DNA of 49,129 nucleotides from Candidatus Methylomirabilota bacterium (lineage in GTDB: Bacteria > Methylomirabilota > Methylomirabilia > Methylomirabilales > 2-02-FULL-66-22), in NCBI GenBank assembly GCA_026387775.1, contig JAPLLC010000110.1:1-49129 (forward strand), in the 5' to 3' direction. The notes beneath the pieces were generated by a model. That model saw only the letters and a list, made by a program, of their open reading frames with translations. It was not told the DNA's origin and ran no database searches. Position numbers and translations under genes: made by a program. Shown here in pieces: positions 13,957 to 40,288 of this stretch (the stretch's first letter is position 1; each line of letters starts with the position of its first letter).

Positions 13957-14250
13957 ATGAAGTTCGTTGCCATCCGGGAACTGCGTAGCAAGACCGCCTC
14001 CATTCGCCAAGATCTGGCGCAGGCACGCGAAATCGTCCTCACCGCCAACGGACGGCCTTTTGCTCTCATGACGCCCGTCAGCCCCGACACGGTGGAAGAG
14101 GAGATTCAGGCCATTCGCCGCGCCCGGACACGCGCCGCGATCGACGCCCTCCGGGCTGCAGCGAAAACCGCGGGTGTCGATGCATTGACCGTGGAAGACA
14201 TCGATGCCGAGATTGCGGCTGCTCGCCGTGCTCGACGGAAGCGCCCATGA
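13957..14250 (+). CDS. Type II antitoxin, Phd/YefM-like
   Basis: A 97-residue protein starting at ATG 13957 behind an AGGAGGGAG site; an upstream in-frame extension runs through the promoter and is discarded. The N-terminus, MKFVAIRELRSKTASIRQDL, and the following IVLTANGRPFALMTPV match the Phd/YefM DNA-binding fold. The C-terminal half is helical, acidic and basic (EEIQAIRRARTRAAIDALR), as expected for a toxin-wrapping tail. It should neutralise the PIN toxin and repress the operon at the palindrome upstream. ATGA overlap with the toxin. Confidence 0.85.
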   Translation: MKFVAIRELRSKTASIRQDLAQAREIVLTANGRPFALMTPVSPDTVEEEIQAIRRARTRAAIDALRAAAKTAGVDALTVEDIDAEIAAARRARRKRP

Positions 14251-14657
14251 GGCGGGTCGTACTGGACACCAATGTCCTTGTCGCCTCTCTCCTCCAACCC
14301 GTCAGTCGCTGTGGGCGTCTGCTGGATCTCGTCGTCGACGGCGCGGCGGAGGCGTGCGTCGACGATCGTGTCCTGGCGGAATACGCGGAGGTGTTGACCC
14401 GGCGAAAGCTCCATCTGCCGCCCGAGAAGGTCCAGACACTCCTGGAGTTCTTCCGGCAGAGCGGGATCCCCGTGATTGCCCACCCGCTCGCCGTGACCCT
14501 CCCCGACCCCGATGATCTCGCCTTCCTGGAGGTGGCAGCCTCCGGGGAGGCCCTCCTGGTCACGGGCAATCAGCGCCATTTTCCAAAAGCAGCAACCGGA
14601 GCCGTCTCCGTACTCAGCCCCGCCGAATGCCTCGAAGCCCTTCGAAAGCGCGCCTGA
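14247..14657 (+). CDS. PIN-domain toxin (VapC-like ribonuclease)
   Basis: A 136-residue PIN protein of the putative toxin subfamily. Acidic residues of the Mg2+-dependent nuclease site are visible: Asp7 in VVLDTNVLVASL, Glu45 in VLAEYAEVL and the Asp cluster at 87-90 in LPDPDDLAFLEVA, with TGNQRHF at 106-112. It likely cleaves RNA when not bound by the upstream antitoxin. The start codon overlaps the antitoxin stop by 4 nt, which enforces coupled translation. Confidence 0.88.
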   Translation: MRRVVLDTNVLVASLLQPVSRCGRLLDLVVDGAAEACVDDRVLAEYAEVLTRRKLHLPPEKVQTLLEFFRQSGIPVIAHPLAVTLPDPDDLAFLEVAASGEALLVTGNQRHFPKAATGAVSVLSPAECLEALRKRA

Positions 14658-14700: not shown

Positions 14701-14770
14701 GCCGGTGCGTTCGTACGAGTCCTGGTTAGCTCCCCAAGCAGGACGAATTTGGGCACTGGGAGGAAGCGAT
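14701..14770 (+). repeat. Structured repeat, copy 1
   Basis: Shares GAGTCCTGGTT, GCTCCCCAA, CGAAT and TGGGCACTGGGAGGA with the copies at 17461 and 21341, and more weakly with the reversed copy at 23241. Within it GTCCTG (14719-14724) pairs perfectly with CAGGAC (14739-14744). Copies 1 and 3 also share a weaker tail around TGGTGT, running up to the end of the neighbouring minus-strand gene. Confidence 0.75.
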
Positions 14771-14786
14771 TCTCTTGGTGTAAGGG

Positions 14787-15872
14787 TTACGGTGAGGGGC
14801 GCGGCATCTTGCTTTGCAGGGCAGCGATGAACTTCGGATCCAGTTCCCCTCCCCGCGTCGTTGCTTCGGCAAGCCCGATCTTCCTCCACGCCTCGGCATA
14901 GTCGCCAACGAGAAACAGGGTCATCGCCCAACCCTGGAGGTTCAGGGTGTGCTGAGGGGCTTTTTCATATACCCGGGCAAAGTGGACGAAGGCTTTCTTC
15001 ACAAGTGACTCATCCCGGGTTTGTGCGCCGAAGATGCCGAGTGTTAAGCCGTAGTCTGCGTAAAAGTCGAGATCGCTCGATACAAACTCCTCCGCTTCAG
15101 CGAAGAGTTTCAGTGCTTCAGGGCGTCCACCTGGTCTGTTCCCTTGGATGACCGCCATACCCCAAAGGGCTTGTCCATTTGAGCCATCGAGCAACCAAGC
15201 TTGATTAAACCGCCGCATCGCGTCGTCTGTCTTCCCCTGACGTAGAAACTGCCAACCCCGCTCGGCAATTTCCTTCGACGCGCTCTTTCGGTTTCCCTTG
15301 TACTGTTCATCCACCGCGGCAATGAACTCGCGATCCGCTGCTTGCTGAGCCTCGTCTTTCGGCTGCGAGCCATACTTCGGCAGCACATTACTACTTTGCG
15401 GACGGGCTGCATGCACCTCGCGCCCATTACGCGTCAAGGACACATTAGAACCGTCCGGCTTCGCACATTCAGTCGGCAGGCGAAGCTTAGAGACGTCGCC
15501 CTCCGTGAGCGCGACCCACATCGAGAGAAACGAATAGTACTGCCCGGCCGAATTGGGGAAGTGGATACCCCCCGGAATTCGCCACACCTTATCGCCGCGT
15601 TTGGTTTGGACGCCGCCAGGTGCCGCATATAGCACTCCGTGGGCGTCGACATGTATTGGCCGATACTCGCCCACGGGCAGACGGAATTCTCGACCGCCGG
15701 CAGAAAGAGAGCACTCATGCTTGACGAGTAGTGTCGTCTCGATTGCTGGACCCCCGCCGAGAATATCCGACGGGGTGACAGGGTGAAGGCCACTGGCGCA
15801 CGCGTTAAGTACGAAAACGGAAGAGAGACCCATGAAGGAGCAGATGATGGACAGAACGCGTCTCTTCCGCAT
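14787..15872 (-). CDS. Lipoprotein with C-terminal TPR-like repeats
   Basis: A 361-residue protein with a lipoprotein signal: basic start MRKRR, hydrophobic core, lipobox LNAC with Cys25. Residues 40-160 form a beta-rich domain of unknown type containing a GGREFRLPVGEYRPIHVD stretch. Residues 200-350 hold helical repeats of TPR type (AERGWQFLRQGKTDDAMRRF, then LNLQGWAMTLFLVGDYAEAW). The ribosome-binding site GGAGGAGG is strong. Cys and Asn content and codon choice look less GC-biased than the flanking core genes, consistent with acquisition. No specific function is recognised. Confidence 0.75.
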   Translation of the reverse strand: MRKRRVLSIICSFMGLSSVFVLNACASGLHPVTPSDILGGGPAIETTLLVKHECSLSAGGREFRLPVGEYRPIHVDAHGVLYAAPGGVQTKRGDKVWRIPGGIHFPNSAGQYYSFLSMWVALTEGDVSKLRLPTECAKPDGSNVSLTRNGREVHAARPQSSNVLPKYGSQPKDEAQQAADREFIAAVDEQYKGNRKSASKEIAERGWQFLRQGKTDDAMRRFNQAWLLDGSNGQALWGMAVIQGNRPGGRPEALKLFAEAEEFVSSDLDFYADYGLTLGIFGAQTRDESLVKKAFVHFARVYEKAPQHTLNLQGWAMTLFLVGDYAEAWRKIGLAEATTRGGELDPKFIAALQSKMPRPSP

Positions 15873-15983
15873 GACGCGATACCTCCTCCAATCCGATCAG
15901 GCGCGATGATGTGAGGGAATCTATAGAAGTCGAGAGGGTGATGTCAACGAGAATCCCCCCCGGTTAACCTCGCCGTTCAGCAA

Positions 15984-16075
15984 GTAATCGGGGACGTTGC
16001 CAAGAATAGCAAGTTACTCCCGCAGGAGTCGAGGCAAAGGCAATTTGTCGTACTTTTGGCAACGTCCCCGATTAC
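15984..16075. repeat. Hairpin repeat (REP/MITE-like), copy 1
   Basis: A 92-bp element with perfect 20-bp terminal inverted repeats: 15984-16003 (beginning GTAATCGGGGACG) and 16056-16075. The 52-nt core contains GCAAGTTA, GGAGTCGAGGC and TTTGTCGTA, shared with the element at 30697-30786. It lies in the 308-nt gap between the lipoprotein and HEPN genes, which otherwise contains no gene. Confidence 0.85.
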
Positions 16076-16180
16076 GATTACGGTGGGGGGAGCTGCGGTC
16101 ACTGAGAAGGCCAATCGATGCCCCATGACGAGCAGGCGACGCCAACCCGATTTCTTGTTCCGCTGCCCCTCAAAACATCC

Positions 16181-16597
16181 TTACGCCTTCGGTCGTTCGA
16201 CGATTCCGCGCGCCCACGCATACACCTCCTCTGCTCGTCGCGCCGCCTCGGTCCCTTCCCGTTCGGTTGCCAGACGGCCCTCGTAATCGAATTGGTGCTT
16301 GTGGGCAATCAAGCGACTCAGCGTGGTCCGCTCTCGTTCCACCTCTGCGCCGAATTCCCGGCGGAGATGCTCGACGACATCCGCATGTGCCGGGCTGTTA
16401 CTCCGGAACCCCCGCCGATGAATCAGTACCGCATCGGCGGCATGCATCGCTGCCTGGATCGCATCTGTGACTGCCGCCGTCCACCGTCGATTGACGACAT
16501 TGTCTGTGGCAGAACGCCGGAGTTCGTCGGCAATCTTGAGGTATGTGGGAGCCGCCCCTGGATCTTCCTTGCGGATGCTCAGCGGTCTTGGTGTCAT
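16181..16597 (-). CDS. HEPN-domain toxin of an MNT/HEPN pair
   Basis: A 138-residue, mostly helical protein. The HEPN nuclease motif, an Arg followed within a few residues by His, is visible at Arg95-Leu-Ile-Ala-His-Lys-His101. The preceding helix AVTDAIQAAMHAADAVLIHRR is the usual HEPN core. HEPN proteins of such pairs are RNases silenced by AMPylation from the partner nucleotidyltransferase. The ATG overlaps the stop of the nucleotidyltransferase gene (16594-16597), the classical order antitoxin then toxin. Confidence 0.78.
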   Translation of the reverse strand: MTPRPLSIRKEDPGAAPTYLKIADELRRSATDNVVNRRWTAAVTDAIQAAMHAADAVLIHRRGFRSNSPAHADVVEHLRREFGAEVERERTTLSRLIAHKHQFDYEGRLATEREGTEAARRAEEVYAWARGIVERPKA

Positions 16598-17229
16598 CGG
16601 AGGAGATCCATCATGGGTGCTCCGTAGAGAATCTCCCCACCGTTGACGATGGTCCGGGCGAGCGGGTCCTTAGCCTGATACCGCTGCGTCAGCACGCGTT
16701 TCGACCAGACCAGGGCGTTGACGGGATGCCCGAAGGTTCGGCGGAGATCTGCGGCCGCAGCGTGGAGCCCTTGTTCTACGCGCTCCTGATCCTTGGCCTG
16801 TGCGATAATGCAGAGGATATCGATGTCGCCCGCTCTCCGCTCCTCTCCTCGGACCATGCTTCCAAACAGGATGACGCTGATCGGTGCCGGCCGCATGGCC
16901 TTGTTGAGGCGACTGGCCAACTGCTCCCGATACGTGGCTTCCGCTCGGAATAGGCCGGCGAGCCCCGCCGCCAACCAATGGTCCCGATTAAACGATCCGA
17001 TCACTGCCCGCCCTACGGGACGGAGATCGACCAACTCGCTCTCCGCTAAGTGCTGGAGCGCGCGGGACACTGCCGTGTGAGAGACGGCCACCGCCTTCGC
17101 GATCGCCCGGCCGGTGTGCGATCCTCCAGCCCGGCAGAGGTATCGCAAGATTCGGACGGTGACCACACTGGCGAAGACGGCGTCCAGCGCTCCTTGCGGC
17201 ATCCCCTGCTGTTGCACCCGCGCCACCAT
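16594..17229 (-). CDS. HTH-nucleotidyltransferase (MNT) antitoxin
   Basis: A 211-residue two-domain protein. Residues 20-80 form a winged helix (TVRILRYLCRAGG, then AIAKAVAVSHTAVSRALQHL). Residues 115-190 form a minimal nucleotidyltransferase with LFGSMVRGEERRAGDIDILC: Gly-Ser at 123-124 and Asp135/Asp137. The third acidic residue of the active site is not obvious in HPVNALVWSKRV, so catalytic capacity is open. Such proteins AMPylate and silence the adjacent HEPN RNase. The fused HTH suggests it also represses its own operon, for which an upstream palindrome is a candidate. Confidence 0.8.
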   Translation of the reverse strand: MVARVQQQGMPQGALDAVFASVVTVRILRYLCRAGGSHTGRAIAKAVAVSHTAVSRALQHLAESELVDLRPVGRAVIGSFNRDHWLAAGLAGLFRAEATYREQLASRLNKAMRPAPISVILFGSMVRGEERRAGDIDILCIIAQAKDQERVEQGLHAAAADLRRTFGHPVNALVWSKRVLTQRYQAKDPLARTIVNGGEILYGAPMMDLLR

Positions 17230-17266
17230 CTGGATTGATCTCCTATGCTGCAGTGGAACCGATCAG

Positions 17267-17279
17267 GTACATATGGTAC
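17267..17279 (-). promoter_or_regulatory. Candidate operator upstream of the MNT/HEPN operon
   Basis: GTAC (17267-17270) and GTAC (17276-17279) flank ATATG, about 40 nt before the MNT start. The ATGGTAC half resembles the operator of the Phd/PIN pair at 13909-13915. The remaining 17230-17460 sequence holds no gene. Confidence 0.35.
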
Positions 17280-17460
17280 GCTTCCGCTCCATGCGTTGCA
17301 AGCCGAAAAGCTCGCTGACAGGTGGGACCAATAGCGGATGCCATGCGACTGGATCCATGGAATGCCGGCGTGGTGTCTGCAGTCATGAAGGGGTGATGGG
17401 CCCCGTGCCTGTCCGATTACCCGGCCGCGCTCCGCGGCCGCTCGGAACCAGAAGAGCTAG

Positions 17461-17510
17461 GCCGGTGCGCGCGTTCGAGTCCTGGTTGGCTCCCCAACCG
17501 GGGCGAATCT
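17461..17510 (+). repeat. Structured repeat, copy 2, interrupted by insertion sequence A
   Basis: Begins GCCGGTGCG as in copy 1 and contains the self-complementary GGTTGG-CTCC-CCAACC stem plus GTTCG/CGAAT outer arms. The repeat is cut after GGCGAATCT (17502-17510), where the insertion sequence starts. The usual GGGCACTGGGAGG continuation is absent at this site. Confidence 0.8.
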
Positions 17511-19421
17511 CTAGCCGTTGCACAAAGGTGTTGATGGGTTCGAGTGAGATACGTACAATCCTCTTGCGAGCATTCATCGCAGGGGATTGTCATGTCTCAG
17601 AAGCTTTCCGCCCCCGGCAAGCCTCCCCGTATCCCGCCCCCGGTGGACGGAATCCAAGTGAACTTCTGCAAGAACCCCGGCTGTCCGAACTACGGCGTCC
17701 CGGCCTTGCCCCGGGTTGCATACACCCGCCTCACGGCCGATCCGTTCCATGACCATTATGAGATGGACTGGGGCAAACTTCCCTCCGTGCCCCTCTTGCA
17801 CTGTCAGTTGTGCAGAGAAGAGCCACCGATCAAGAGCAATCAGGCCGTGGCCGAGGAGCGGGCGCGGCTGCTAGCCCCGCTGCAGCAACGTCCAGAGCCC
17901 AGTTGCCCGAACCCGTTGTGCGCAAACCACCCGATTCCCCTCAGCCGCGCCGCTGGCAGTTATCAGTCGTTTGGGAAAACCCACTCTGGATCCCGGCGCT
18001 ACCGCTGTAAGGCCTGCCGGCAGACGTTCTCGGTGGGGATCGCGACCCTGCGCCAGAAAGCCCCCGAGAAGAATCGGACGATCTTTACCCTCCTGGTGAA
18101 CAAGGCCCCCCTTCGTCGGATTTGCGAAGTGGCGCAGATCGATCCGAGCCATCTCTATTGGAAGATCAAGTTTCTGACTGCCCAGTGTCAGACCTTCGTC
18201 GCGGACCGGGAGCGTCGGCTTCTCGGTGGGCTGCCGCTCCGCCGGTTGTATCTCACGACCGATCGGCAAGAGTACATGGTGAACTGGCCGCGGCAAGAGG
18301 ATCGCCGGAACGTGCTCCTCCACGCCGTCGGGACGGCGGACACCACCAGCGGCTACGTGTTTGGGGTACACCTGAACTACGATCCCACCCTGGATGCCGC
18401 CCGGGTGGAGGCGGAGGCCGAAGCCTGTGGGGACCTGCACGCCAAGCGTCCCTTCCGCCGGTTCGCCCGGTGCTGGCTTGCGGCGGATTATGCGGAGAGC
18501 CACCAGCGCCAGGCCGTGCGGGGCCGCCGGGGGAGAGTCCCCCTGCCGGCGGCGATTCAAGCGACCTACGACGAGGCCCTTGAGCGCGAGGACGTCGAAG
18601 TCTCCGACCCCCCATCCCCCGATCGGCGTCTGCCGGCTAAGGGTATGCAGCTCCACGCGGAGTACACGCTCTACGGGCACTTCTTCTATCTGCGGGAGCT
18701 CTTCCGCGGGGTCGAGAAGCTCCGGTTCTTCCTCGATCAGGACTCGGGCATGCGGGCCGCCTGTCTCGCCGCCTTCCACCCTGAGATTGCCGCGCGCCGG
18801 GCGGATGCCTTCTATGTGCGGATCGCCTCCAAGCTGACGATCTCTGAGAAGCGGGCCGCCATCGCCGAGAGCCGGCGGGCCTTTCAGGAGGCTCGCCGAG
18901 CACATCCCGACCTCTCGGAAACCGAGGTCAAGCTGCTGCTAATCAAGACCCGGATGCGCGAGATGGCGGCCCTGGGCAAATGGCAGGATAAGTGGTTGAC
19001 GCACCCCTTTCCCCATATGAGTGAGCCCAGGAAGGCCGTCTGTTACCTCACCGATTACGGGGATTACGACGAGGATCACCGGGCGTGGCTCTACAACAAG
19101 GCCTCCCTGCACGCGATCGATTGTTTCTTTATGCAGGTGCGCCGCCGGCTCTCGATTCTCGAACGACCCATTGCTTCGGCGAGCGCTCTCCAGCGGACCT
19201 GGTACGGGTACAGTCCCTACAATCCCGAGAACATCTTGCGGCTGTTGACGATCTTCCGCGCCTACTATAACTACTGCTTACCTGGGAAGGGTGGAACCAC
19301 ACCGGCCATGCGACTGGGATTAGCCAGCGCGAAGGTGGACTTGGAGGACATCATTCGGTTCCAGACCGTCGCAGGTCAGGGGTTGACTTCTGGATTTTCA
19401 ACACCTTTGTGCAACGGCTAG
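17511..19421 (+). mobile_element. Insertion sequence A, complete
   Basis: Length 1911 bp. Perfect 24-bp terminal inverted repeats occupy 17511-17534 (starting CTAGCCGTTGC) and 19398-19421. Flanking direct repeats GGCGAATCT at 17502-17510 and 19422-19430 give a 9-bp target duplication. One transposase gene fills the element and its stop codon TAG is the last three bases of the right repeat. The intact ends and duplication suggest recent movement. Confidence 0.92.
17592..19421 (+). CDS. Transposase with N-terminal zinc fingers, family unassigned
   Basis: A 609-residue protein starting at ATG 17592 (AGGGG 7 nt upstream). The first 150 residues hold four Cys pairs: Cys26/31, Cys71/74, Cys105/110 and Cys139/142. 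The last pair, in RYRCKACRQTFSV, resembles the zinc ribbon of IS1-type InsA and related transposases. Candidate acidic catalytic residues are Asp224 (LYLTTDRQEY), Asp382/384 (RFFLDQDSG) and Glu546 (YNPENILRLL), an RNase H-like DDE pattern. I infer transposase mainly because the gene exactly fills an element with inverted repeats and target duplication. The length is large for IS1-like enzymes, and I cannot name the family. Confidence 0.8.
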   Translation: MSQKLSAPGKPPRIPPPVDGIQVNFCKNPGCPNYGVPALPRVAYTRLTADPFHDHYEMDWGKLPSVPLLHCQLCREEPPIKSNQAVAEERARLLAPLQQRPEPSCPNPLCANHPIPLSRAAGSYQSFGKTHSGSRRYRCKACRQTFSVGIATLRQKAPEKNRTIFTLLVNKAPLRRICEVAQIDPSHLYWKIKFLTAQCQTFVADRERRLLGGLPLRRLYLTTDRQEYMVNWPRQEDRRNVLLHAVGTADTTSGYVFGVHLNYDPTLDAARVEAEAEACGDLHAKRPFRRFARCWLAADYAESHQRQAVRGRRGRVPLPAAIQATYDEALEREDVEVSDPPSPDRRLPAKGMQLHAEYTLYGHFFYLRELFRGVEKLRFFLDQDSGMRAACLAAFHPEIAARRADAFYVRIASKLTISEKRAAIAESRRAFQEARRAHPDLSETEVKLLLIKTRMREMAALGKWQDKWLTHPFPHMSEPRKAVCYLTDYGDYDEDHRAWLYNKASLHAIDCFFMQVRRRLSILERPIASASALQRTWYGYSPYNPENILRLLTIFRAYYNYCLPGKGGTTPAMRLGLASAKVDLEDIIRFQTVAGQGLTSGFSTPLCNG

Positions 19422-19430
19422 GGCGAATCT
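19422..19430. repeat. Right target-site duplication of insertion sequence A
   Basis: GGCGAATCT, identical to 17502-17510. It separates element A from the left end of element B by exactly these 9 bases. Confidence 0.85.
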
Positions 19431-21305
19431 CTAGCCGTTCCAGAAAGGTGTTGAAAAGTCTGAGAGGTGTGGGCACAATAGCGAGAGATTATCTGAGGAT
19501 AGGGGGTTGCCATTCCTGAGAAGATTTCTTCCGCAGACAAACGCCCCCGCATCCCGCCCTCTGTCAGCGGGGTCCAGGTCAACTTCTGCAAGAACCCCAA
19601 CTGCCCTAATTACGGAGTCCCAGCCCTCGCGCACGTCTCCCGCGGGCACATCACTGCCCATTCCATTCACGATCGGTACGAACTCGATCGAGGCGTAGAT
19701 CCGTGGGTGCCGTGCCTGCATTGCAAGCTCTGCAAAGAAGAGCCACCGCTCAAGAGCAATCAGGGCATCACCGAGGAACGGAACCGACTCTCGAAGGAGC
19801 TCCAACGACTGCTCGCGCCTACGTGTCCGAATCCGGCGTGCGAAAATCACCACATGCCGATCACCAAGGGCAGCGACCATTACCACCGATTCGGGAAGAC
19901 CCACTCTGGATCACAACGCTACCGCTGCAAGGCCTGTTGTAGGACGTTCGCGGTGGCCACCGCCACGGTGCGGCAGAAGGCCCCGCATCAGAACCGCACG
20001 ATTTTTTCTCTCTTGATGAACAAGGCCCCGTTTCGCCGGATCTGCGAAGCAGCCGGCACGCATCCGGGCCCCCTGTATGGGAAACTGCAGTTTCTGACGG
20101 CCCAGTGCCGGGCCTTCAGCGCGGAACGGGAGCACCGCCTCCGCGAGGGTCTGCCCATCCGCCGACTGTATCTGGCCACTGACCGGCAGGAATACGTGGT
20201 GAACTGGTCGCGGCAAGAGGACCGGCGGAACGTGCGGCTGTACGCCGTGGGCACGGCCGATAACGAGACGGGGTACGTGTTTGGGATGCACTTGAACTTC
20301 GATCCGACCTTGGATCCCGGCGCGGTGGAGCGCGAGGCGCAGGCCTGCGGGGACCCCCAGACCAAACGCCCCTTCCGGCGGTACGCCCGGTGTTGGCTCG
20401 CGGCGGACTACGACTACGCGCTCCAGCGGCAGACCCACAGGGGCCAGCGGGGACACCAGCCCCTGACCGACGAGATCCAGGCGGTCTATGATGAGGCCGG
20501 GGACCGGGAGGATGTGGAAGCCTTTGAAACGCAATCGCTCGCCCGACGCCTGCCCAGCGCCGGCATGCAGATCCACGCCGAGTACACGCTCTATGGCCAT
20601 TTCTTCTATCTCCGGCAGCTCTTCGGCGGGGTGGAAAAGCTCCGGTTCTTCCTGGATCAGGAGTCCGGCATCCGTGCGGCGTGCCTGACGGCCTTCCAGC
20701 CCGAGATCGCCGCGCGCCAGGCGGATGCCTTTTACGTGCGGATTGATCCGCGGCTGACGATTACAGAAAAGCGGGTCGCCGTTGCCGAAAGCCGGAAGAT
20801 CTTTCGGGCGGCCCAGCAGGCGCACCCCACCATGTCGGAAACGGAGGTTCGGCTCCTGCTCATCAAGCAGCGGATGAGCACGATGGCGGCGCTCGGCAAA
20901 TGGCAGGACAGGTGGCTGACGCACCCCTTTCCCCACATGAGCGAACCCCGGAAAGCCGTCTGCTATCTCACCGATTTGGGGGACTATGACGAGGAGCATC
21001 GGGCGTGGCTCTACAACAAGGCTTCCTTGCATGGCATTGACCGGTTCTTCATGCAGGTCCGCCGCCGTCTCTCGATTCTCGAGCGACCCATCACCTCGGC
21101 CAGCGCGTTTCAGCGGACCTGGTACGGGTACAGCGCGTACAATCCCGAGAGCGTTTCGCGACTGTTGACAATCTTTCGCGTGTACTACAACTACTGTCTT
21201 GCGGGAAAAGGGGAAGCCACGCCGGCCATGCGATTGGGGCTCGCCAAAGGTAAGGTGGCCCTCGAGGACATCATCTACTTTAGAGCTGGGATTCAAGAGG
21301 AGTAG
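19431..21305 (+). mobile_element. Insertion sequence B, degraded relative of A
   Basis: The left end 19431-19454 matches the left repeat of element A at 22 of 24 positions. The expected right repeat is not found before the structured repeat at 21341, so the right end has been lost. The gene within is roughly 70% identical to the transposase of element A by eye. The end coordinate given is the stop of the reading frame, not a defined element end. Confidence 0.8.
19512..21305 (+). pseudogene. Transposase of insertion sequence B, start codon and C-terminus altered
   Basis: The frame aligned to the intact transposase opens at ATT (19512), exactly where element A has ATG. An in-frame stop at 19500 precludes an earlier start. 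The first usable start is GTG at 19707, which would remove the first zinc-binding Cys pair (CKNPNC). From there the frame is uninterrupted and keeps the same Cys pairs, LYLATDRQEY and LRFFLDQESG; the Glu region reads AYNPESV. The C-terminal 13 or so residues that in A are encoded by the right terminal repeat are replaced by unrelated GIQEE. It is probably non-functional, or initiates at ATT with low efficiency. Confidence 0.75.
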
Positions 21306-21340
21306 GTACCCAGACGGTTTCCTATGGATGGACCTCCCAT

Positions 21341-21430
21341 TCTTCAGGTTCGAGTCCTTGTTGGCTCCCCAAGCGGGGCGAATCTGGGCACTGGGAGGAG
21401 AGGGTGTCGCTGGTGTGAAGGCTTAACGGG
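21341..21430 (+). repeat. Structured repeat, copy 3
   Basis: Contains GGTTCG (21347-21352) pairing with CGAATC (21379-21384) and an inner TTGG-CTCC-CCAA stem (21361-21372). GGGCACTGGGAGGA follows as in copy 1, and a weak TGGTGTGAAGG similarity continues to the end of the DUF2971 region. Confidence 0.75.
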
Positions 21431-21434
21431 CCGT

Positions 21435-21457
21435 GGATGGGGGGCGCATGGTTAGAT
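21435..21457 (-). repeat. Half of an attC-like site at the 3' end of the DUF2971 gene
   Basis: On the minus strand the gene ends TGCAATCTAACCATGCGC, with the stop codon TAA inside ATCTAAC. The same 18-nt string with one mismatch occurs in reverse orientation at 22372-22389. ATCTAAC fits the RYYYAAC box that opens integron attC sites and often contains the cassette's stop codon. The matching distal half is not found. Confidence 0.5.
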
Positions 21458-22357
21458 TGCATCGAAGTAGAGTCGAAACTGATCGGTTCCGCGCCGCGCT
21501 TGGAAGATCCGCGATTTCGGGTAATTCGCGGAAAGCAAGGTGACGAATGACTCCTTGAGCTTGGGATCCATGTTACACCCCAGGTAGACTGACCCGACCT
21601 CGTTCGGTCGAAGACGGTAGTCGGAGAAAAAGGAGTCCTGCCGATGGGGCAGCAGGTCCCATACCCGCCACTCCTTCTCATATGACCACACATCGCTCTT
21701 GACGCGGGCGTATCGGAAGTACAGGTCGTCGACATCGAGATCGCGGACGCCCAGAATATCGTCGAGCCACTGCTGCTCTGTGAAGAAGGGCGGAGGGGCG
21801 CTCCGATAAACGACGGGTTCAGCGACGCACAGGGGATTGTCTTCGTCAGGCAACACCAGGAATTCGAAGACGACACCGGTGTGAGATTTTCCGTAGTGGG
21901 ACCACATAAGCAGATTGTCCCTCTCTTCGCAGACGCTGAATACACGGAGCCGAGGTAGAAACTCCTTCCACTTGTGTTGGTACTTGACCTGAAAGTGAAT
22001 GATCTTGTCCTTGAGCTCCTTCAGCGGCAGCTCGCACGCCTCCCAGAGGCGTTCTCTTGGAAAACCCTGAGTGATCCGCCTGTCCCACATGAAGAGGACG
22101 GCCTGGCCCCATGGATCGTCTACAGAGAGGTTCGGTCGCGTGGATGAGGCGACCAGATCCTCGATGCGCTTGAAGAGCTTGTCCGGTAGCGATCCGATAG
22201 CGAAGTCAAAGTGAAGGCCAGCTTGAACGTCGAAAGGATCGTTGAATATGAGGGGTGAGCTGTAGCGAACAGCCCCGACCTGGAGGATCTTGATCGCCGT
22301 TGTTGCCGACGTGTACTTGAAGAACCGCTCTCTGTCGTGTCTTGGATGAGACAGCAC
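21452..22357 (-). CDS. DUF2971 family protein
   Basis: A 301-residue protein. I favour GTG at 22357, which has AAGGTGGGG just upstream, over a GTG 18 codons earlier that lies inside the attC-like site. DUF2971 is recognised by FFKYTSATTAIKILQVGAV, RYSSPLIFNDPFDVQ and CEERDNLLMWSHYGKSHTGV. The family has no firm biochemical role but is frequent on mobile and defence islands. Flanking attC-like sequences suggest it arrived as a gene cassette. It is soluble, with no signal peptide or membrane helix. Confidence 0.8.
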   Translation of the reverse strand: MLSHPRHDRERFFKYTSATTAIKILQVGAVRYSSPLIFNDPFDVQAGLHFDFAIGSLPDKLFKRIEDLVASSTRPNLSVDDPWGQAVLFMWDRRITQGFPRERLWEACELPLKELKDKIIHFQVKYQHKWKEFLPRLRVFSVCEERDNLLMWSHYGKSHTGVVFEFLVLPDEDNPLCVAEPVVYRSAPPPFFTEQQWLDDILGVRDLDVDDLYFRYARVKSDVWSYEKEWRVWDLLPHRQDSFFSDYRLRPNEVGSVYLGCNMDPKLKESFVTLLSANYPKSRIFQARRGTDQFRLYFDAI

Positions 22358-22372
22358 CGCCCCACCTTTGCA

Positions 22373-22479
22373 ATCTAACGATGCGCATAACCGGCCGTGC
22401 GGTACCCCCACGCTAATTGATCATGCCATCCGCCCCACTTGCGCCACGTACTCGCGGTCCGGTTGATGCGCTTGTCAGC
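22373..22479 (-). repeat. attC-like imperfect palindrome (integron recombination site candidate)
   Basis: A 107-bp site between two minus-strand genes. GCGCAT (22383-22388) pairs with ATGCGC (22466-22471), and AACCGG (22389-22394) with CCGGTT (22459-22464), leaving G22465 extrahelical. A further ~11 pairs reach GTAC/GTAC (22403-22406 region and 22448-22450) with single bulges. The outer boxes, GTTAGAT on the minus strand (complement of 22373-22379) and GTCAG (22474-22478), pair across a short unpaired spacer. GTTAGAT fits the GTTRRRY consensus. Orientation is right for a cassette array read leftwards. Confidence 0.55.
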
Positions 22480-22513
22480 TGCTCAGAGACTCAATGGACT
22501 GCGCTGTCATTCT

Positions 22514-22936
22514 TCATCGGCCAGGATGAACACTTCTCGCCTTCATTCGGGGATAGATCCTGAAGATGAAAAGACATGAAGCTGCGACGGTAATAGATGC
22601 GAGTACGGGATTGAGCAGATGGAGGTATCTGACCGCTGCTTCACGCGGAACGCTGGTCAACGGGATAATAACGGCGAGTAGAGCCCCGGCGAGGAACCAC
22701 AGAACTAGTCCTAGGATAATGGATGTGAGGGACCTCTTCATGAATTGAGTGCGCCGATTGGCTACGAGGACGACCCCCAACACGAGTGAAGGAGGTAACA
22801 GAATCAGATTGGCATAGATGCTGGATTCAAGAACAGTAGGGATATGCGACATACCCCAGATAGCGCCAAGAAAGAATGTGAGAACAAACCAAATGAGGGT
22901 GCCCCAAAACAGACCGGAGAGCAGTTTCCTCATCAT
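22514..22936 (-). CDS. Small four-helix membrane protein, unknown function
   Basis: A 140-residue protein from ATG at 22936 (GAGG 5 nt upstream; a longer in-frame extension lacks a site). Four hydrophobic segments are clear: LLSGLFWGTLIWFVLTFFLG, LILLPPSLVLGVVLVA, IILGLVLWFLAGALLAVIIP and PVLASITVAASCLFIF. The C-terminus is basic and short. I recognise no family. Its base composition is less GC-rich than neighbours, and it is followed 35 nt later by the attC-like site, so it may be the upstream cassette of the pair. Confidence 0.65.
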   Translation of the reverse strand: MMRKLLSGLFWGTLIWFVLTFFLGAIWGMSHIPTVLESSIYANLILLPPSLVLGVVLVANRRTQFMKRSLTSIILGLVLWFLAGALLAVIIPLTSVPREAAVRYLHLLNPVLASITVAASCLFIFRIYPRMKARSVHPGR

Positions 22937-23010
22937 CCGTTCCTCGGTTTGGGAGGTGCCAAACACCCCCTGGATTGCAGGAGGAAAGTTGGGCGAACCG
23001 TCGGTCGAAG

Positions 23011-23037
23011 AGTATCGTCGCGCTCACGGGCTGTCAA
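23011..23037 (-). promoter_or_regulatory. Promoter upstream of the small membrane-protein gene
   Basis: Perfect TTGACA (complement of 23032-23037) and GATACT (complement of 23011-23016) with a tight 15-nt spacer, about 75 nt before the gene start. The spacing is shorter than ideal. Confidence 0.4.
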
Positions 23038-23046
23038 CCGTAAACG

Positions 23047-23071
23047 CCCCCCGTTTCAGTAACACGGGGGG
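23047..23071 (-). terminator. GC-rich hairpin
   Basis: CCCCCCGT and ACGGGGGG arms around a 9-nt loop, lying between the DUF2284 stop and the promoter at 23011. It could end transcription from the DUF2284 gene. No T tract is present on the minus strand. The 23072-23240 sequence holds no gene. Confidence 0.45.
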
Positions 23072-23240
23072 TTGAAAATACACGAGGAGGAAAGTAGGCA
23101 CAGAATCGGTCAGGGGGAGCACCGACACATGGAGGTGCGAGTCTGAAGGACCACATAGGCAAGGCCGCCAGAGCCCCGAGGCGGCCGACAGGATCGCAGG
23201 CGGGGCGGCGGCCGTCGAGCGGGACGAAGAGACTCCTGGG

Positions 23241-23291
23241 GTGGTGCCCAGATTCGGACCCAGATGGTTCCCCATCAAGGACTCGAACCCG
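23241..23291 (-). repeat. Structured repeat, copy 4 (reverse orientation)
   Basis: Read on the minus strand it gives GGTTCGAGTCCTTG, an inner stem GATGG-GGAA-CCATC and CGAATCTGGGCAC, matching copies 1-3 in order but with a different inner stem sequence. It lies 14 nt beyond the DUF2284 stop. Confidence 0.7.
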
Positions 23292-27972: not shown

Positions 27973-28091
27973 CAGTGTCCGCGGAAATCAGTGAGCCGCA
28001 CCCTCTTGCCGCGGCGAATCGCGTCGGCACCGACGCATCGCGGCAACCCTCAGCACGCAGTTCGCAGGCTGTTGGAATACTCACTCTTCGG

Positions 28092-28216
28092 CAGGCTGCT
28101 CAAAAAGGTCCAGATGCAAGGCGGAACACGCAGAGCCGAGTGAGGCGTACTCCAGGTACGCCGCAACGAGTGCCCAAGTGTTCCAACGCCGCAGATGGGC
28201 CTTTTTCAGCAGCCTG
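28092..28216 (-). repeat. 125-bp palindromic repeat, copy A
   Basis: Ends CAGGCTGCTCAAAAAGG and CCTTTTTCAGCAGCCTG are inverted repeats. A central GGCGTAC/GTACGCC palindrome lies at 28144-28162. It matches the 125-bp element at 40105-40229 in reverse orientation, with similarity continuing to about 28064. It directly follows the TAA of the DUF898 gene. Confidence 0.85.
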
Positions 28217-29326
28217 TTAGATGCCCAGATCGAAGCCCGCATCCAGGAGGTTGGCCAACCCTTCGCCCGTGGCGGACGCGTCCTGGGCTTCCTGCTGGAT
28301 GCTCGCCAGGTCCAGGGAGCCTTCCAGGGTCAAGTACCTGAAGGTGAAACGGATGCCTCGCGCCGCGACCCATGGCCAGCCGAGCCCCAGCGTCACGATC
28401 AGGAGGAGCATATTCCCCAGGCTGAACCCGAGGAGGCGTCCTCCCGTGACGGTGGAGTGGAAGCGGGCGGGACCGAACGCGGTGTGGTCCCAGTAGTAGC
28501 GCTGCTTCCTGGCCGCGAACCAGACCCAGCACAGGCCCAGGGTCGGCAGCGTGAGAAGGAGCGTCAGCAGATACCTGCCAAAGAGGTCTTTGCCCCGGCC
28601 GTCGAACGAGAACGGCTGGTTGCCGAGATACGAGTGCGACACCAGGAACCCGTGCCGCCGAGCGTCGAAGATGGGATAGTAGAGGCCCAGCGTGACGGTG
28701 CTGAGCAGCGAGCCCCAGAGGAAGAGCGTGACGAACTCCCGAACCCCACCCCGGAACGAGAACCGGACGCCGCGCCAAGACGTCCGGCTCAGCCGATAGC
28801 GCCGCGCGCCCACGATCGCGACGGGGAGAAAGGCCAGAATGAGGACGGAGGACAGGAATTTTACGATGGCTTCGATGATCGGCGATGTGACCAGAATACC
28901 CATGACCAGATTCAAAACCATGAGAGGGAGACCGACGAGCAACACGGCCTTCAGAGAACCGAAGAGCAGCTCCTTGCCGGTCCCGTGATAGGCGAACCGG
29001 TCCCCCTCCAGCTCCGTCTGGCTCAGGAGGTAGCTCCGGACCTTCGCCTTGCCCCAGAAATAATAGAGGCCCAGCGTGACCACAGTGAGAAAGAGGTTGA
29101 CGATGTGAATCCCGAAGAGGGATCCGCCCGTGCCGTGGAAGGACATCCGATGGGCCTGCCCCGCCTGAGGGCTGGGGTCGTTGCCGGGCGTCTTCCGCTC
29201 AACGGGAGGCTTCCGCTCAGCCGAGAACGCCGCCGACGACGCGCCCAGTGGCGTCCGACAGGACTTGCAGGTCGGCCCCGGCAACTGCATCAACCCACAC
29301 TTCGGGCACTTCACCCCCGTGGCCAT
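28217..29326 (-). CDS. DUF898 (YjgN-like) membrane protein with N-terminal zinc ribbon
   Basis: A 369-residue protein beginning with a zinc ribbon, CPKCGLMQLPGPTCKSCRTP. It continues with a repeated membrane module: FHGTGGSLFGIHIVNLFLTV, TLGLYYFWGKAKVRSYL and YHGTGKELLFG, with a second set at FDGRGKDLFGRYLLTLLLT. This G-x-G-x-LFG/YYFW pattern is the DUF898/YjgN signature. About six to eight membrane helices are predicted by eye. Function is unknown. GGAGGGACG precedes the start. The last codon is followed at once by the 125-bp repeat. Confidence 0.85.
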   Translation of the reverse strand: MATGVKCPKCGLMQLPGPTCKSCRTPLGASSAAFSAERKPPVERKTPGNDPSPQAGQAHRMSFHGTGGSLFGIHIVNLFLTVVTLGLYYFWGKAKVRSYLLSQTELEGDRFAYHGTGKELLFGSLKAVLLVGLPLMVLNLVMGILVTSPIIEAIVKFLSSVLILAFLPVAIVGARRYRLSRTSWRGVRFSFRGGVREFVTLFLWGSLLSTVTLGLYYPIFDARRHGFLVSHSYLGNQPFSFDGRGKDLFGRYLLTLLLTLPTLGLCWVWFAARKQRYYWDHTAFGPARFHSTVTGGRLLGFSLGNMLLLIVTLGLGWPWVAARGIRFTFRYLTLEGSLDLASIQQEAQDASATGEGLANLLDAGFDLGI

Positions 29327-30696: not shown

Positions 30697-30786
30697 GTAA
30701 TGGGGGACCCGGCCAAGAATGGCAAGTTAGCCGCTCGGGAGTCGAGGCCAACACAGTTTGTCGTATTTGGCCGGGTCCCTTATTAC
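30697..30786. repeat. Hairpin repeat (REP/MITE-like), copy 2
   Basis: A 90-bp element with 20-bp terminal arms 30697-30716 and 30767-30786, complementary at 18 of 20 positions. The arm sequence (ACCCGGCC part) differs from copy 1 at 15984 (ACGTTGCC part), while the core GCAAGTTA, GGAGTCGAGGC and TTTGTCGTA is conserved. It lies in the 618-nt gap between ilvE and the GntR gene. The remainder, 30787-31080, shows only a TTGACA at 30816 and no gene. Confidence 0.8.
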
Positions 30787-38895: not shown

Positions 38896-40104
38896 ATGAG
38901 TCCGCAATCCAAGGAGCCCTGGCGCAGCACCCACTGGCACTGCAGCCCGCACAACTTTGACCCGAGCCTCCAGGTGCCGCTCCACCCCGTGGCCCTGCAC
39001 GACATCACCGTGCGGGACGGGGAGGAGTGCGCCGACGTGGCCTTCACCGTCGACGACAAGGTGCGGATCGCCGAGGCGCTGGCGCTGGTCGGGATCAAGC
39101 GCATGGAGCTGTTCCTCACCGTGCCCGGCTGGCTGGAGGCCGTGCGGGCCATCCTGCGCCGCAAGCTCCCGCTCGACCTCTACGTCACCTGGCACCCCGG
39201 CCGCGTGGAGCGGGTGCTGGAGCTCGGCGTCCGGCACATCATGGTCTGGTACCGCATCGGCGAGGAGCACCAGCGCTACGACCTCCGCCGGTCGCGGAAA
39301 GAGCTGCTCGATCAGGCCGCCGCGCAGATCGCCGCCGCCCGCCAGGCCGGCTGCGTGGCCAACCTCTTCCTCGTGGAGGGCAGCCGGGCGACGCTGGAGC
39401 AGATCCAGGAGGCGGTCCTGGTCGGCAAGCAGGCCGGCGCCTCGGCCGTCACCGTGGTGGACAGCTACGGCGTGGCCCGGCCCGCGGCTGTCGGGTTCCT
39501 CGTCCGTCAGGTGCGGGAGTGGAGCGGCCTGGAGGTGGATGTCCACTGCCACAACGACTTCGGGCTGTCGACGGCCAACGTGCTGGCCGCCTACGAGGCC
39601 GGCGCCACCGGCCTGAACGTGGCGGTGAACGGCCTGGGGTACCGGGCGGGGAACGCAGCCCTGGACGAGGTGGCGCTGGCGCTGGAGGTCCTCTACGGTG
39701 TAGACACGGGGCTCCGCCTGGAGATGCTCCCGTGGCTGGGCAAGCTCGTCGAAGAGATCACGGGGATCCCCCTCGACTACTTCAAGCCGATCACCGGCAA
39801 GGGCGCCTTCAGCGTCGAGCAGTGGAAGACGGCGAGCGCCATGGAGACGGCCGGCGTCCGGCCGTACGCCTTCCCCTTCGAGCCCGAGCTGGTCGGCCGG
39901 ACCCCCCGGGTCGTGGTCGGCAAGTGGAGCGACGTGGGGGCCGTGGCCAAGAAGCTCAGCGACTACGGCCTCACCGCCTCGCCGGAGGATCTGGGCCGCA
40001 TCCTGCCGGAGTGCCAGCGCGCCGGGATCGCGCACCATCGCCCGCTGACTGACGACGAGTTCCTGGCCGTCGCCAGGGCGCACGGGGCCGTGCCGGCGGA
40101 GTAA
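38896..40104 (+). CDS. DRE-TIM metallolyase/synthase family enzyme (HMG-CoA lyase or 2-isopropylmalate synthase-like)
   Basis: A 402-residue TIM-barrel enzyme. Metal- and acid-binding motifs are seen: LHDITVRDGEECADVAFT with Arg40-Asp41 (DRE motif variant) and VDVHCHNDFGLSTANVLAAY with His217/His219/Asn220. NGLGYRAGNAALDEVA is the G-x-G-x-x-G-N-A-x-x-E loop of the family. Members condense or cleave acyl-CoA and keto acids. The substrate is not predictable; the sequence has neither the LeuA regulatory domain nor an obvious citramalate signature. GAGGT precedes the ATG. Context suggests a carbon-carbon bond step for the imported acid. Confidence 0.82.
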   Translation: MSPQSKEPWRSTHWHCSPHNFDPSLQVPLHPVALHDITVRDGEECADVAFTVDDKVRIAEALALVGIKRMELFLTVPGWLEAVRAILRRKLPLDLYVTWHPGRVERVLELGVRHIMVWYRIGEEHQRYDLRRSRKELLDQAAAQIAAARQAGCVANLFLVEGSRATLEQIQEAVLVGKQAGASAVTVVDSYGVARPAAVGFLVRQVREWSGLEVDVHCHNDFGLSTANVLAAYEAGATGLNVAVNGLGYRAGNAALDEVALALEVLYGVDTGLRLEMLPWLGKLVEEITGIPLDYFKPITGKGAFSVEQWKTASAMETAGVRPYAFPFEPELVGRTPRVVVGKWSDVGAVAKKLSDYGLTASPEDLGRILPECQRAGIAHHRPLTDDEFLAVARAHGAVPAE

Positions 40105-40229
40105 CAGGCTGCTCAAAAAGGCCCATCTGCTGCGTTGGCCCGCTTGGGCGCTCGTTGCGGCGTACCGGTAGTACGCCTCACTCGGCCCTGCGCGTGCCGC
40201 CTTGCATCTGGACCTTTTTGAGCAGCCTG
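40105..40229 (+). repeat. 125-bp palindromic repeat, copy B
   Basis: Exactly as long as copy A (28092-28216) and in opposite orientation. Ends are CAGGCTGCTCAAAAAGG and CCTTTTTGAGCAGCCTG. It immediately follows the TAA of the DRE-TIM gene. Similarity to the copy A flank continues to about 40258. It fills the 184-nt gap before the SDR gene. Confidence 0.85.
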
Positions 40230-40288
40230 CGCGAAAGCGGGATTTCCAGCAGCCTGCCGAAGGGTGGAATCTACAACGGAGGACGGTC

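Follow-up and report, generated by a model that had tools for sequence, protein, structure and literature searches.

The dispersed repeat in the window (the whole stretch of DNA that was analysed, 49,129 nucleotides long and comprising all of contig C101 in a genome of 4.46 Mb and 312 contigs) was best read as a member of a family of palindromic repeats that is specific to the genus, low in copy number and scattered between genes. We consider the chances about even that the repeat represents the right-hand edge of small integron cassette insertions, most of them decayed, and is otherwise passive. The evidence came from the end of the repeat's tail, where related copies abruptly stopped resembling one another at a GTT trinucleotide of the kind that opens an integron core site. 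The features of the window on which the argument draws were as follows.

14713..14790, plus strand: repeat copy 1 with both hairpin and tail; minus-strand edge box GTAACCC
17473..17510, plus strand: repeat copy 2, 5' half alone, interrupted by an insertion sequence (IS) right after GGCGAATCT
17511..19421, plus strand: IS1-like insertion sequence; perfect inverted repeats of 24 bp at 17511-17534 and 19398-19421; flanked by GGCGAATCT at 17502-17510 and 19422-19430
19431..21305, plus strand: second related IS copy, protein 70% identical, one in-frame stop, without the right-hand inverted repeat
21347..21427 (start also given as 21348), plus strand: repeat copy 3, complete; last tail bases AAC at 21425-21427
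21421..21457, minus strand: truncated attC-like remnant, from R'' ATCTAAC (21451-21457) to R' GTTAAGC (21421-21427) at the repeat edge
21452..22357, minus strand: DUF2971 gene; GTG start, chosen by reading, just behind the R' box GTTAGAT
22373..22477, minus strand: attC candidate with R'' TGACAAG, L'' CGCATCAACCGG (one extra C), L' CCGGTTATGCG and R' GTTAGAT
22514..22966, minus strand: small gene of 150 aa upstream of the attC candidate, a possible second cassette gene
23206..23288, minus strand: repeat copy 4, loop inverted; tail diverged, without an edge box

The repeat family and its range

The four copies reported by the initial annotation were recovered at 14713 (+), 17473 (+), 21348 (+) and 23288 (-), and a BLAST search with copy 3 retrieved the other three at E = 1e-12, 2e-10 and 0.006. 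The E value of 2e-10 given to copy 4 by model R1 was obtained with copy 4 in the training set of that model. The repeat unit was a decayed palindrome, GTTCGAGTCC..TGGCTCCCC..GGGCGAAT, followed by a tail of ~40 nt with an AAC end; spelled out for the family, it read GTTCGAGTCC-NNNN-TGGCTCCCC-NNNN-RGGGCGAATCTGGGCACTGGGAGGAGAGG..TGAAGGCTTAAC. Its length was ~80 bp, with long forms reaching ~160 bp.

The inner stems described for the four copies (GTCCTG/CAGGAC, GGTTGG/CCAACC, TTGG/CCAA and GATGG/CCATC) were present letter for letter, and copies 1, 3 and 4 did lie just past the stop codons of minus-strand genes. The outer arm GGTTCG/CGAATC, also described there, was complete in copies 3 and 4; in copy 2 (CGTTCG) it was mismatched at one end position, and in copy 1 (CGTACG/CGAATT) it was broken. 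A TGGGCAC block had been taken as common to all four; copy 2 has none, because the IS cuts it right after GGCGAATCT. The loop of copy 4 was in inverted form, with TGGGGAAC in place of GGCTCCCC.

Further copies, which the initial annotation had proposed to look for genome-wide, were found. A covariance model built from 15 repeat copies detected about a dozen in the genome of the window, a few in each of several congeneric genomes and a single strong one in a different family of the same order, with almost none elsewhere. When 84,980 species were scanned with a degenerate exact pattern, a sole match was returned, on an Acidobacteria contig; read in context, it was judged to be due to chance. The viral sequences searched gave no matches. 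Relatives at C30 and C72 were near-perfect 38-nt palindromes (GTTCGAGTCC..18 nt..GGACTCGAAY), and the perfect-palindrome pattern occurred at just three loci in the genus. On the simplest reading, the copies would descend from such a palindrome by loss of two bases from one arm (GGACTCGAAT to GGRCGAAT), and we infer that the stems differ between copies because they decay.

The tail edge and integron-type core sites

The AAC at the end of the tail was kept in seven copies and reads as GTT on the opposite strand, the start of an integron core site. That site is defined as 5'-GTTRRRY-3', with exchange after the G (PMC12901181). On the strand opposite that of copies 1-3, the edge boxes of the seven copies were GTTAAGC, GTTAGTC, GTTAAGA, GTTAGCC, GTTGGTC (twice) and GTTAACC. 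The edge was sharp, as identity between copies fell from 0.58 just inside the AAC to 0.26-0.35 outside it. The same break separated two near-identical loci, G012:C236 and G006:C44, which were 95.7% identical along the 1.7 kb leading up to the edge, a stretch that includes an HI0933-like gene, and 28% identical beyond it. A crossover at such a core site would leave this pattern; the sequences support that step rather than prove it, because the statistics of single attC sites are weak.

The two loci were also of note in themselves: the matching stretches, 218-1912 of L067 (G012:C236) and 1791-3476 of L065 (G006:C44), shared 95.7% identity though the genomes are assigned to different families, a likeness that reflects either a recent transfer or a binning error.

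On the far side of the edge, a gene read towards the junction at window copies 1 and 3 and at C98, C283, C16, C221 and C44. Sites resembling attC were readable beside the edge at C98, C283, C221 and C44, the first three with an extra base on the L'' side; a scoring scheme of low power singled out just two of the edges, C283 (p 0.016) and C98 (p 0.034). Generic attC scans, based on the L-box duplex, alignment, complementarity of start and end boxes and the extrahelical-base rule, also had low power, with few sites standing out and true sites barely above shuffled counts, and the attC alignment was too small and too gappy for model building. A recognisable edge site was absent from copy 4, C243a, C18, C140 and the G003 copies.

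A cassette-like unit in the window adjoined copy 3. The start box of the DUF2971 gene, GTTAGAT (22373-22379), is followed by AAAGGTGG and the GTG start, and its end box, ATCTAAC, is the perfect complement of the start box, with the stop codon inside it. The unit (21427-22378, minus strand) thus has the R' GTTRRRY start and complementary R'' RYYYAAC end of a gene cassette. The attC expected downstream was incomplete, with 37 nt between the outer box ends and no L' complementary to L'' in that remnant; because of this truncation, the unit would at best be a relic of a cassette. For L-box pairing, the candidate at 22373-22477 scored best in the window, with a penalty of 0 that shuffles reach about once per 376 kb; its R' was perfect and its R'' imperfect. 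Copy 4 lies beyond this candidate and the 150-aa gene, in opposite orientation. In total, contig C101 carried one good attC candidate and one truncated site, and had no intI match.

A full-length IntI was encoded elsewhere in the genome, at 17484-18428 of L054 (G000:C134), scoring 464 bits against a cut-off of 265, and of the seven genomes of the genus, five had matches above the curated cut-off. Sites resembling attC also occurred on some contigs carrying intI fragments, and the covariance model found no repeat copy on the contig of the full-length gene. Small ORFs lie behind the 3' end of this intI, which suggests an array on the 3' side; several contigs of the genus break at that point.

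The copies had been proposed as possible module boundaries or recombination sites. This was partly borne out, in that similarity broke off sharply at the tail edge, at a core site of integron type (G|TT opposite copies 1-3) with differing genes and attC-like sites beyond; the repeat adjoins that site, and the hairpin as a recombination substrate was unsupported. We favor a reading in which, in at least seven copies, crossover at a core site of this type (G|TTRRYC opposite copies 1-3) would have occurred at the tail edge. A gene reading towards the junction lies on the other side and is followed, in several copies, by a site resembling attC. The repeat would form the right flank of small integrase-less cassette insertions, relics resembling clusters of attC sites lacking integron-integrases (CALINs). 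The junctions were presumably made by the host IntI, which would have inserted or exchanged cassettes at the repeat edge, and the palindrome, probably passive DNA that doubled as an IS target, would have decayed afterwards together with the attC sites. The low power of the attC scoring, the short remnant beside copy 3, the copies lacking an edge site and the contig of the full-length intI, on which no copy was detected, count against this reading. If an integrase does place cassettes repeatedly at the repeat edge, the genomes would provide natural, sequence-tagged insertion sites outside attI and a means of recognising single-cassette insertions, which array-based tools discard by default.

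Similar arrangements are known from other integron systems. In class 1 integrons, the 3'-conserved segment is a shared sequence directly to the right of the last attC, as the repeat is at different loci; the repeat, however, is ~80-160 bp long and without genes, and no integrase or attI was seen at the left end. CALINs are clusters of attC sites without an integron integrase, by default of at least two attC sites (PMC9024848). The repeat loci resemble them in having cassette-like genes and attC-like sites at integrase-less loci with IntI elsewhere in the genome, and differ in that the attC sites are decayed and mostly single, and that one short repeat recurs from locus to locus immediately behind the crossover. 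Cassettes at attG or secondary sites (PMC12901181) also occupy genomic positions outside attI with a GTT-type core, but attG sequences diverge strongly, whereas here a conserved repeat lies to the right of the crossover.

A more active role appears unlikely: the repeat, present in multiple copies and bearing a hairpin, would then be a dispersed landing pad, with the host IntI favoring its tail edge for the insertion of cassettes. Were it true, the genus would spread single cassettes over the chromosome, some near toxin-antitoxin-like genes, and would not store them in one array.

Insertion sequences, palindromes and alternative origins

Several older copies had no recognisable edge site, and an ordinary REP- or MITE-like palindromic repeat of accessory islets, adjoining cassettes because both accumulate there, therefore stays a serious alternative, though one that we regard as doubtful. 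Like REP elements (PMC1525189, PMC2817692), the repeat is an intergenic, imperfect palindrome; its relatives at C30 and C72 are near-perfect palindromes, and several of its decayed copies are without cassettes. Its IS insertions agree with the known preference of some IS elements for REPs as insertion sites (PMC1525189), and the IS occupies the same base in two copies: a miniature of ~200 bp with the ends of the 1.9-kb IS sits in the C243 copy at the position used in copy 2. Another miniature, at G006:C30, lies in an unrelated hairpin, GCCCCCGT..ACGGGGGC, and has a separate 9-bp duplication, which rules out that the element targets the repeat alone. For this reason, the IS seems to prefer hairpins.

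Against an ordinary REP or MITE stand the seven copies that end exactly at AAC with unrelated DNA beyond, which it leaves unexplained, and the copy number, about a dozen where REPs typically exceed 100 per genome (PMC2817692). The repeat also differs from REPs in its long tail and in sharing its IS family with other hairpins, and flanking duplications were not recognised. REPs are further accompanied by a linked REP-associated Y1 transposase; here, one of the five Y1 matches in the genome (C140:2110) shared a contig with a repeat copy (11976), 9.5 kb apart, and the other four were on contigs without one.

The IS at 17511-19421 had features of the IS1 family, namely terminal inverted repeats close to the family's ~23 bp, a target duplication (GGCGAATCT, 9 bp) within the usual 8-9 bp, and an IS1-type zinc-binding and N-terminal match. 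It differed in its protein of 625 aa, which resembled IS1 weakly and, at 33-38 bits, scored far below the curated IS1 cut-off of 100.

An origin from integrative elements that use tRNA genes, which would have left behind either an attachment site, since decayed, or part of a tRNA-gene 3' end, was judged improbable. It would account for GTTCGAGTCC..CCCCA on the plus strand, spaced like a tRNA T-arm and CCA end, for GGGGAGCCA on the other strand, which resembles the 3' end of tRNA-Asn, and for the best local alignments, which for many copies stop at the 3' terminus of the tRNA. Their scores, however, were 16-20 against a shuffled mean of 13.3, with most copies inside the shuffled range; no tRNA or Rfam match was obtained, and the conserved tail has no tRNA counterpart.

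The changing stems had been interpreted as covariation suggesting selection for a fold, which the 15 copies did not bear out. With 3' letters shuffled among the copies as the null, 79.5% of cells were paired in the register of the GTCCTG/CAGGAC stem (shuffles, 79.7%) and 3 pairs showed double changes (shuffles, 3.8), so that the covariation above background characteristic of a structured RNA family was not found; an alternative register was marginal (11 to 50 of 500 shuffles attained the observed values). Folded as single-strand DNA, the copies had z-scores of just -1.5 to -2.6. A conserved RNA fold under selection was not supported, because there was no excess covariation, the inner stem cannot form in many copies and an Rfam search with the repeat gave no match. 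Four copies alone can make a decaying palindrome look like covariation. A structured RNA or transcription terminator whose hairpin is kept by selection at gene ends is accordingly largely refuted and very improbable: most copies can be drawn as hairpins and three follow stop codons, but no T tract lies behind the hairpin and copy 4 has the opposite orientation.

Neighboring genes and other repeats

Toxin-antitoxin-like genes were also observed in the window. At 13957-14657 (plus strand), next to copy 1, a PIN-domain gene (PF13470) comes after a small ORF that resembles an antitoxin. At 16181-17229 (minus strand), a nucleotidyltransferase gene whose N-terminus is MarR-like comes directly after a HEPN-domain gene, and the two form a HEPN/MNT toxin-antitoxin-like pair. 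The window also contained a MITE-like direct repeat of 72 nt (15984-16055 and 30697-30768, 79% identical), in which both copies have inverted repeats of their own at the ends (GTAATCGGGGACGTTGCC..). A 156-nt inverted pair (28064-28219 and 40102-40257, 87% alike; CAGGCTGCTCAAAAAGG..) occurred again in G000:C98 and near G000:C192, and therefore represents another dispersed palindromic repeat family.
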